NCBI GenBank assembly: GCA_916048095.2 | Contig: OU696581.1 | Location: 8,690,766 to 8,754,765, forward strand | DNA length: 64,000 nt | Direction: 5' to 3' | Source: Sacculina carcini | Taxonomy: Eukaryota; Arthropoda; Thecostraca; Sacculinidae | Part shown: piece after piece, positions 25,541-64,000 of the stretch | Layout: the number at the start of each line of letters is the position of its first letter | Position numbering within the stretch: the stretch's first letter is position 1 | The notes under the pieces: generated by a model | The model's input: the letters and a program-made list of their open reading frames with translations, nothing else | Database searches by the model: none | What the model was told of the DNA's origin: nothing | Program-made: the position numbers and the translations under genes

Positions 25541-26582
25541 TCAGGGGGTTGGAGGGGGTTGTCTTTTGAGTCGACACAACAGCGCGCGCCACAACTGTCG
25601 ATATGGAGTGACAGACTCGTACTGGGTACGAGGAATACGCAACAAACGACGCACTCTCGGACTCATCAGCGCCAGATTGGTGGCCAGCGAACACGACGAC
25701 GACACGCTCCAGTACAACACCAGTGCCTGCCACACACACACACACACATATACACACGACCACACACACATACACACAAGGGTGTAGATTTGTGTCGAGG
25801 CTCGGGGGGATGACAGCCATCATGCATTAGTGTTCAAAGTTGACTCAGTTGGTCAATTGTATGAGACCCTCAACTATTTTATGTCTATTGAATTATACAT
25901 ATATATCAGACACTCAATGAAAAATATACTACGTATAATTACATACACACACATTTGTCGTGTCTTGCTACTTTTTGCTATGTTGATTTTCATGACAATA
26001 TACCCAATGAACTAAACTGATCATTATCGGGAGGTATAATTGCATATTCATAACCCCAGTCAAGTTATTAGAGGGTGTATATACCCCCATACCCCGAGGA
26101 TATACACCTATGCACACACACACACACACACATGCGCACACACACACACACGTGTCTAAAATACACCGTCGTCACATCTAAGCGTAATTAAGAGCATACG
26201 CCACAATAAATGTACCAACACGCAACGCTTCATTCTGGCAATATATCGAGCTTTTTATGGCAAATATACGGCGGATGTGATGCAAATTAAGCACGAGTAA
26301 TATGGTGAAAATGCAGCTCAATAATCGATACATTATCGTCCAACACAATGCTTCATGTTGAAACATGCACCATGGCGTGGCTGACACACCCACACACTGA
26401 CACTGACACACACACACACACACTGACACTGACACACACACACTGACACACTGTAGCTGCACTGACCGACGGAATGAAACTGGACACTGCCAGTACGAAA
26501 CAACACAGAAATCGCCCCAAATACACCGGCACCTTACTCAATCCCACCAGCGGCTTCAAACGACTCATCACCCCTATCTATC

Positions 26583-26663
<81 letters not shown>

Positions 26664-61333: not shown

Positions 61334-61365
<32 letters not shown>

Positions 61366-64000
61366 AGCAGGCAAGCAAACAAGCAGCAGTAGACTGTATT
61401 GTTGACTGCATGAAAGCCGAGGCGTGCAACAGCAAGCACATGCAATGAGCAGCAGAACAGCGAGGTTGTCATGACAACGAGCCACTCAATCAACACGCAC
61501 AGCAAGCGGTCTCACCTGGCCGAGCACTTGTTGCAGCGCGTGCAAGTTGCTCGCCGCCACACTAGAGTAATTGTCGTCCTCGGCCGTCTCGTGCTGTCCT
61601 GTCGAGTGCTCGTCCTTCTGTGTACCAGTCTGTCAGAACACCAGTGCAACACACACACACACACACGAGCATGATGGTGAGTGCATGTACCGCGATAGAC
61701 AAACCCAACACACATGGCCACCTCACTAGTCATCCAGCCAGGTGAGAGACGGGGTGATTAACTCACGTGGTGCAAGCATGATGTATCACTGTTATTGCTG
61801 CCGACACTGAACACTGGCAGACTGGCAGGACCGCTGCTATCAAACGACGTCTGCAATCAACACACACACACACAAACACACACATATATAAGTTCAGTTG
61901 TTCGTGCAGTATGGCATCAAGACATCAGGAGATATCAGCCTGACACACAGTGAGAGGACGCTAATTCTACTGTTCTTGCTGTTGTCACAGGCTCAATGTG
62001 AAAGATACACGAGTCTGACGTGATTGGAAGCACGCGTAACTCGTCGCTTCAGTTAAAGGTTAAATACCTCAAGTGATAGCTGCTACACGGGAAGAAGCCG
62101 AAGCTTATGAACACACACAGGTGTGTCCCGTGCAGCTCGCTGCCACCGCAAAACCGACCCTCTCCACGCTATGGCGCCACAAGGACGAAATAAGTATTAG
62201 AGAGCCACCTCCACAGAATGCATGACACAACACATGACTGATATCTGGTACCATCATTTACTGCTGTACGCTCACACACACACCAGAACAACAAGTTACA
62301 ACACGACAGTCCACAAGGAGAGGGCAGGGGAGAAAGGTAGCGCAGATGAGCTGCACACGCCAAACAATGATACAACAATAACCTATCTACTGTAACTGAC
62401 ACTATCCACAGATCCACACACAGACAGGAGGAAGAGAATGAAGAAAGAGATGAGGAAATTCAGTGAACAAAATTGAATGAGGCCACTTGCGACAATCACC
62501 ATTGCACACACACACACACACACACACACAACACAGCATACACATCTGTGCGATACACACAGAAACGCACGTGATTGTATGAATGACTATGTGGTGTCTG
62601 TGTGTGTTTCATATGACAGTGATGTGAGCTCGGCCAGCTAAATTTGGTGACACGTTTGAACGTCGGACACGAATAAAATTATCTAGCTGCTACCACACAC
62701 ACACACTGACACACACACACACAACCACACACCAGACCGAACAAGAGAGATGGATAACACACTGCCTGTGTTGATGAATCATGTAGAATGATGGAGGAAG
62801 TGATAGAGAAGTATATGAACTCGGTGCATAGAAGAAACACAGGTTCATTGGACTCAAACCACACAAACACACACATACACACACACGCACACACATACAA
62901 ACACACATAGTGTAGGGCTTATTTGTTACGAGTTGAATCAACACAAAACAATGCCAAACATGCGGAATTACAAACACCCACACACACTCACGCATGCATA
63001 CACACACACACACTAACACACTAACACACACACACACACACACACATACCACACAACATGTGACCACGTCGACTGCACGGCGTTTACTACACGAGAAAAT
63101 AAAAAGCCAAATCACAGACTAATACAGCAATCAATTAACTTTAACTTCGTTTGTATTAACTTTAACTTCGTTTGTATTAACTCTAACTTCGGTTTGTATT
63201 AACTTTAACTTCGTTTGTATTAACTCTAACTTCGGTTTGTATTAACTTTAACTTCGTTTGTATTAACTCTAACTTCGTTTGTATCAACTTTAACTTCGTT
63301 TGTATTAACTTTAACTTCGTTTGTATTAACTTTAACTTCGTTTGTATTAACTTTAACTTCGTTTGTATTAACTTTAACTCTCTAACTTTGTTTGTATTTT
63401 TATCACTGTTATATAGCTATCATGAATCCATGGACACGTGACAACTGACTGACTGACGATTTTGTAATGGTGCAAACAGTGAGAAATGAATTGAGAACCA
63501 CTGATTTAACAGGTGTTGATTGTATGTGTGAATAATGCGCCAGCTCGCATCACTTGGTCCGTACATTGTACCGGTCTGTACAATTCGTGGAACGCTGATG
63601 ACGGCTTTTCCACGCATGCATGCACACAAATACTGAGAATGCCAATCAATGAGTGTATGGTATTACGCCGCACCCCGCTGCAACGGTGACTCATCGTAAC
63701 TTGCATGAGTCAGCAATGACTTGTGAGTAACATTGAGCTTGCGGTAATGGAGACGATTTGGCTGTGTTGGTGACTACTGCCAATGTTACAGAGCGGATGA
63801 CAGGAACCACACACCAGCCCCATGCTATTTCTCTATGCAAACAGGTGTGTTGTTGTCACCTGATGACAGAGCACATTGTCGCGCTGGTGCTGGTTGGTGA
63901 TGCGCGTGGCGGACGGTGTGCAGCGAGAGTCACGCAAAGAACCAGCTCGTTCAGGTCTCACCCCCTCATCACCAGCAGCCGTCTCACTGCAACCTGCACA
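58230..64000 (-). CDS. Unrecognised multi-exon gene, C-terminal part (five exons, open at right edge)
   Basis: Exons in coding order: 64000-63860 (incomplete), 61850-61767, 61629-61516, 61291-60823, 58933-58230. GT-AG borders with phases 0,0,0,1 join into 484 codons ending in TGA at 58230. The first visible part is hydrophilic (SLRDSRCTPSATRITNQHQR, then SSGPASLPVFSVGSNNSD and an acidic ETAEDDNYSS). From VAASNLHALQQVLGQ the protein becomes leucine-rich and helical (ACREALSPALRYLVSL, HWLVAASFRRQRVMLLLARA, HVFLLLLQVVSLLIEQRHML), with a Pro/Ser-rich insert (HSPSPPAHSPPHSPPHQ) and ends in LQRWLAVHRAAMLSQL and VDQLMHALQLISI. No signal peptide or clear membrane span. It may be an alpha-solenoid or DENN/longin-type regulator, but I do not recognise the family. 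Confidence 0.72.
59076..59420 (+). mobile_element. tRNA-Val-derived SINE, copy 3 (full length)
   Basis: Same head and body as copy 1; the head has TGGTGTAGTGGCAGCACACC and B box GGTTTGAAACC (one change). Lies in the last intron of the unrecognised minus-strand gene, antisense to it. Confidence 0.9.
59640..60800. repeat. 25-bp minisatellite (GGTAATGGTGAGTGGTAATGTGGAT)n, about 46 copies
   Basis: Regular 25-bp array with variants (GGTAACGGCGAG, GGTACCGGTGAG) filling most of an intron, ending 22 bp from the exon donor at 60823. The plus strand contains a GGTGAGT in every unit, a splice-donor-like motif, but the host gene is on the minus strand. Confidence 0.96.
62050..62270 (-). mobile_element. 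tRNA-Val SINE, copy 4 (head missing), minus strand
   Basis: Reverse-complement body from CAGCAGTAAATGATGGTACC through CGCCATAGCGTGGAGAGGGT to the CTTCTTCCCGTGTAGCAGCT tail. The tRNA-like head is absent, i.e. a 5'-truncated copy. Lies in an intron of the unrecognised gene and in the same orientation as it. Confidence 0.85.
62271..63859. other. Intron sequence of the unrecognised gene
   Basis: CA tracts at 62504-62530, 62693-62728, 62858-62907 and 63000-63047, and a 21-bp minisatellite (63130-63390). No further exon is required by phase between 63860 and 61850, and none was seen. Confidence 0.55.
63130..63390. repeat. 21-bp TTAACTTTAACTTCGTTTGTA minisatellite, about 12 copies
   Basis: Regular tandem array with TTTAACTTC / TCTAACTTC and occasional extra G variants. 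Intronic. Confidence 0.95.

Follow-up and report, generated by a model that had tools for sequence, protein, structure and literature searches.

GU-rich tracts before the 3′ splice sites of Sacculina carcini probably take the place of the polypyrimidine tract

The window analysed here, a stretch of 64,000 nucleotides (C12:8690766-8754765; positions below are those of the window unless a contig is named), belongs to a 264 Mb genome in 43 contigs. COX18 and LYSMD lie on its minus strand, together with an unrecognised gene (58-68 kb), and SKIC3, EXOC2 and MARS2 on its plus strand. The plus-strand exons of MARS2 join cleanly into a methionyl-tRNA synthetase of 511 aa (Pfam E 1.7e-91), whose alignment with MetRS in the PDB spans residues 1-479. 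An open reading frame at 21836-24736 matches Aa_trans (amino-acid transporter) and ends in a long, Asn-rich C-terminal tail with NNNNM-type repeats, and retroelement-type frames occur among the genes (28486-31368, RVT_1; L030, recognised by eye). Rfam scans returned tRNAs only. The first intron of MARS2 (44192-48262) consists almost entirely of a 14-bp minisatellite, ACATTATCACCAGT, in about 293 copies. Farther upstream, at 43469-43871, some 400 nt separate the EXOC2 stop from the acceptor at which the MARS2 frame opens; both genes have the same strand, and no first exon of MARS2 is obvious; MARS2 could be the downstream member of an operon with EXOC2, served by trans-splicing.

The tracts and acceptor regions of the window, as read in the sequence, are as follows.

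48312..48381, plus strand: interrupted TG tract, MARS2 acceptor 48393
48485-48498, plus strand: CA run opening the MARS2 intron 48483-48585 (acceptor 48586)
48574..48581, plus strand: short TG tract (8 nt), MARS2 acceptor 48586
48846..48870, plus strand: TG tract, MARS2 acceptor 48879
50998..51044, plus strand: interrupted TG tract, MARS2 acceptor 51051
51647..51667, plus strand: TG tract, MARS2 acceptor 51673
39165..39174, plus strand: TG tract, SKIC3 acceptor 39178
32921..32941, minus strand: TG tract (CA on the plus strand), COX18 acceptor 32913
26584..26661, minus strand: 78-nt TG tract, COX18 acceptor 26577
25731..25748, minus strand: TG tract, COX18 acceptor 25726
49874..49901, plus strand: acceptor region of MARS2 exon 49902, without a TG run in the last 60 nt
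50143..50170, plus strand: acceptor region of MARS2 exon 50171, without a TG run in the last 60 nt
51409..51436, plus strand: acceptor region of MARS2 exon 51437, without a TG run in the last 60 nt
32518..32545, minus strand: acceptor region of COX18 exon 32517, GT-rich, without a run of 8 in the last 60 nt
27421..27448, minus strand: acceptor region of COX18 exon 27420, GT-rich, without a run
54630..54657, minus strand: acceptor region of LYSMD exon 54629, without a run

An earlier note on this DNA had placed TG tracts before MARS2 acceptors 48393, 48879, 51051 and 51673, COX18 acceptors 32913, 26577 and 25726 and the SKIC3 exon 2 acceptor (39178), and we found a tract at every one of them. 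The two MARS2 donors that it had located inside repeats also proved to be so placed, 48482 in a CA run and 50382 in minisatellite. For the unrecognised gene, TG is indeed present near the candidate acceptors; its exons are putative, and this gene was therefore kept out of the counts. In the interval covered by that note, 9 of 15 curated acceptors have a TG run.

The sequence read comprised the window with 100 kb of flanks and, from C1 and C2, 50 kb apiece, some of these letters being N; C8, C16 and C22 then contributed 10 kb apiece, and the surroundings of kinesin genes on C10, C8 and C4 were read over 9.9 kb. The acceptor set grew from 36 to 39 (11 genes) and finally to 52, in 14 genes on six contigs (C12, C2, C22, C8, C10 and C4). 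A self-trained gene finder fused genes, and was used for candidates; the counts come from exons joined by hand, with GT and AG demanded of every intron during curation. SKIC3 exon 2, LYSMD and a FREP-like gene (C22) were added to the set by hand, and afterwards the three kinesins. After their exons were joined, COX18, PRPF19, a homeobox protein, SLC5, ELOVL, a MARK-like kinase and a KLHL protein matched their Pfam families. Families thus rest on profile matches, and the gene names (LBX-like homeobox, MARK-like kinase, kinesins, U2AF2 and so on) are those that we presume from similarity.

The junctions of MARS2, COX18, PRPF19, ELOVL and the kinesins, one MARK junction and the first SLC5 junctions fall within the matched domain. 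Those of both KLHL introns, the LBX intron, SKIC3, LYSMD, SLC5 110622 and 110403, SLC5 from 100057 on, MARK 9727 and the FREP-like C22 intron were placed by reading-frame continuity or remembered similarity, and the COX18 donor 27281 carries an uncertainty of about 15 nt. Outside the counts, besides the unrecognised gene, stand the first predicted LBX intron, the exons upstream of EXOC2, an 1102-aa gene, a predicted gene at 41-43 kb of C2, a later LYSMD exon, and also MARS2 43871 and the C10 kinesin's first exon. These last two, both without a TG run, were dropped since it was uncertain which exon precedes them or precisely which AG is used.

Of the 52 acceptors, 26 have a TG run of 8 nt or longer within the last 60 nt of the intron, as compared to 2 with a CA run. 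The proportion was similar in the smaller sets (18 TG and 1 CA among 36; 19 TG and 2 CA among 39), and is 26/54 when the two dropped acceptors are put back. Three of the 52 had first been spotted in a list of TG runs (SLC5 110622 and SLC5 103407, in window numbering past 64000, and MARK 9727 of the C2 block); without them, the count is 23/49. Random 60-mers contain such runs in 5.3% (TG) and 5.2% (CA) of cases, and intron interiors in 5.5% and 6.9%. The acceptor density thus differs from the background (26/52 vs about 5%), equality of the two being what the earlier note had named as speaking against the pattern. The pattern itself therefore holds, but the claim that TG lies upstream of most acceptors has to be lowered to about half. 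The kinesins differ among themselves, with TG at 5/5 acceptors on C8, 2/4 on C4 and 0/4 on C10.

The runs are also locked in position. In the set of 39, all 19 TG runs end no more than 12 nt from the exon, whereas only 4 of 836 decoy YAGs of the same introns have a TG run ending that close (Fisher 1e-24); among the 52 acceptors, 23 of the 26 runs leave a gap of at most 12 nt. The window is rich in repeats (on the plus strand, 52 TG runs and 85 CA runs are 8 nt or longer), and the pattern could in principle be a by-product of abundant TG/CA microsatellites combined with wrong exon borders. We consider this extremely unlikely, given the excess of TG over CA at acceptors (26 to 2), the exon-locked position, the 4/836 decoys and the borders that lie inside conserved domains (MetRS, ELOVL, Prp19, kinesin).

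The strand bias also appeared when no gene model was used. Among TG runs of at least 12 nt, 21 of 275 were followed by an AG within 8 nt and a coding-like open stretch of 90 nt, as compared to 1 of 275 CA runs; when a wider gap was allowed and the coding cut was raised, the contrast shrank (19/274 for TG, 4/274 for CA). Over the whole genome, the exact string (TG)9CAGG occurs 399 times and its read-backwards control 24 times. The anagram (TG)9GGCA occurs 92 times (backwards, 15) and (TG)9CGGA 52 times (backwards, 50), the former being the fairer control because both CGGA and the backwards CAGG contain CpG. Two strings are commoner than (TG)9CAGG, namely (CA)10GG (1477; backwards, 945) and (TG)9CATG (1234; backwards, 874), which we read as mostly interrupted repeat arrays. 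The former had been considered as a strand control and was dropped, since it amounts to a CA array with interruptions and is not comparable; the same applies to (TG)9CATG. The strand, decoy, background and whole-genome pattern tests together support both suggestions of the earlier note, that the arrangement is a genome-wide habit and that TG tracts stand in place of the polypyrimidine tract.

The composition of the acceptor regions extends beyond the repeats. Between -24 and -5, the 52 acceptors average A.082, C.085, G.385 and T.449, and the 26 acceptors without a run still show A.131, C.150, G.319 and T.400. When the same interval was divided into 4-nt bins (36 acceptors), G ranged from.34 to.46 and T from.42 to.51, with A and C each at most.10. 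The GT fraction at -28 to -5 exceeds.6 at 35 of 39 acceptors vs 157 of 836 decoys, and its mean at the 20 no-run acceptors of that set is.715 vs.479 at decoys (p 2e-10). The four remaining acceptors, with a GT fraction of.6 or less, are exceptions, and one C10 kinesin acceptor has.50. As the no-run acceptors are GT-rich too, GU richness would seem to be the basic signal, and pure TG runs look like an expanded form of such a tract. The low C and A could in part reflect the way in which slippage tracts grow.

In other respects, the introns follow the canonical form: they are GT-AG introns ending in YAG, with C or T at position -3 in 38 of 39, and the tract occupies the same location before the YAG as the polypyrimidine tract of U2-type 3′ splice sites, which is read by U2AF65. 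Unlike that tract, it has G instead of C. On average over the 52 acceptors, the sequence before the AG is not a C/U-rich, G-poor tract (C.085, G.385), and pyrimidine runs within the final 40 nt are no longer at acceptors (median of the longest run, 3 nt) than at decoys (4 nt).

The tract thus has a distinct composition, a fixed position and strand specificity, and is present beyond one chromosome. Strand, position, composition and genome counts lead us to the reading that GT-AG introns in this animal carry, just before the AG, a GU-rich tract poor in A and C in place of the pyrimidine tract, to which we assign a probability of roughly 0.65. Judging from its position and composition, the GU tract would take over the job of the polypyrimidine tract, namely the recruitment of U2AF and U2 snRNP. 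The (TG)n runs would then be its slippage-expanded form, and may be retained because a (TG)n of any length stays GU-rich and AG-free.

Introns that end in GT repeats are also found in fish and lamprey, where AC-GT repeat introns have been described (Lin et al. 2016, PMID 26566657, as cited in PMC9198270 and PMC7404189). In such introns, an (AC)n repeat downstream of the donor base-pairs with a (GT)n repeat upstream of the acceptor, and this bridge does the work of U2AF2. The introns studied here resemble them in the GT repeats (26/52) and, in a few cases, in a donor AC as well. Single introns fit the scheme: very strong bridges are predicted for the 506-nt intron of SLC5, at -89.6 kcal/mol for its own duplex, and for a pair of introns in the C8 kinesin (-51.4 and -58.9). 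CA runs are mildly enriched in the first 150 nt past the donor (11/43 introns vs 10.5% background, p 0.004). However, a donor AC bridge in the same intron is not general. Predicted duplexes of own donor-acceptor pairs are no stronger than those of swapped pairs (24 introns, p 0.42; 30 introns, p 0.34), donor CA does not preferentially accompany acceptor TG (3/16 with TG vs 5/14 without), and the model-free donor test gave no excess of CA over TG (35 vs 39, from 500 runs each). Furthermore, acceptors without TG runs are GT-rich too, a feature that, like the missing general complementarity, sets them apart from the fish and lamprey introns as described in those sources. Co-occurrence and duplex permutation led us to reject AC-GT bridging as a general rule, and we regard it as a very unlikely account of the tracts; bridging may help some introns without explaining the overall pattern.

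If GU tracts replace the pyrimidine tract, their reader would be, in our proposal, U2AF2, present as two diverged copies and acting with or without a GU-binding helper; this is the weakest part of the proposal. Two copies of U2AF2 score above the family cut-off. They are single-exon genes, head to head on C26, with open reading frames of 428 and 421 aa and no stops within the match, and the best PDB matches of both are chains named Splicing factor U2AF 65 kDa subunit. The pair (L032/L033, C26:1032223-1036658) shares 48-78% identity in 100-nt DNA windows over most of its length, while the last 300 nt are 97-100% identical, which suggests gene conversion.

Both copies differ from human U2AF2 at 44 positions of the compared stretch, from which we picked N268 (P and G in the two copies), N271 (T, S), D272E, N289H and K340R. 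We take N268, N271 and N289 of U2AF65 to have a contact role and to be conserved in other animals; the three were not found by name in the accessible parts of the literature searched for them. PMC4786784 describes D272 as making a contact between the RRMs and K340 as contacting a phosphate. The same source gives Q147, N196, K225, R227, V254, K260, F304, K329 and G338 as U2AF65 contacts, and all nine are kept in both copies. Given that the checked contacts are unchanged and that the five changes were hand-picked from 44, an altered specificity of U2AF2 is conjectural, and U2AF2 is a candidate reader, on sequence grounds.

The same unchanged contact residues count in favour of an alternative in which U2AF2 is ordinary and the tract would be bound by TDP-43, CELF or SF3B4 (in SF3b), which would then bring in U2 snRNP. 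TDP-43 and CELF classically bind UG repeats, and the genome contains three matches to TDP-43_N; in the form given in the earlier note, the link of the tracts to these two factors finds no support beyond those matches. SF3B4 is stated in PMC7408900 to prefer GU-rich motifs. The matches to the TDP-43 N-terminal domain lie at C29:895365-895583 and C26:5886003-5886991, and two of the three are arranged head to head inside 1 kb.

In human CFTR exon 9, too, a (TG)n repeat, linked with TDP-43, lies only a few nucleotides ahead of the 3′ splice site; this is a single regulated site with a T tract, at which the arrangement favours skipping. Our acceptors share the arrangement. Unlike in CFTR, it concerns about half of the checked acceptors, with a gap of at most 12 nt in 23 of 26, and, while the human TG tracts hinder inclusion, the tracts described here stand at in-frame exons of housekeeping genes. 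On balance, a separate GU-binding factor seems to us a rather improbable, though serious, alternative to the reading that the GU tract replaces the pyrimidine tract.

A more far-reaching version of the latter reading would be a lineage-wide shift of the 3′ splice-site code to a GU tract, accompanied by changed recognition by the duplicated U2AF2 (RRM2 positions 268, 271 and 289), whereby TG microsatellites would become ready-made splice signals. We regard this version as possible but doubtful. To our knowledge, the polypyrimidine tract is regarded as near-universal in animal 3′ splice sites, and a search of open-licence papers, covering titles, abstract openings and passages, returned no title on GU tracts replacing polypyrimidine tracts in an animal. 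If G does stand in place of C there, the signal is able to drift, perhaps along with its reader. Such a genome would mislead ordinary gene predictors, would offer a natural test of what U2AF2 requires, and would tie the way in which splice signals arise directly to slippage in microsatellites.

Finally, among 123 kinesin matches in the whole genome, 26 run from profile position 1 to at least position 324 of 327 in one frame; 23 of these 26 are free of stops and 11 lie on C11, which suggests many retroposed or intron-free copies.
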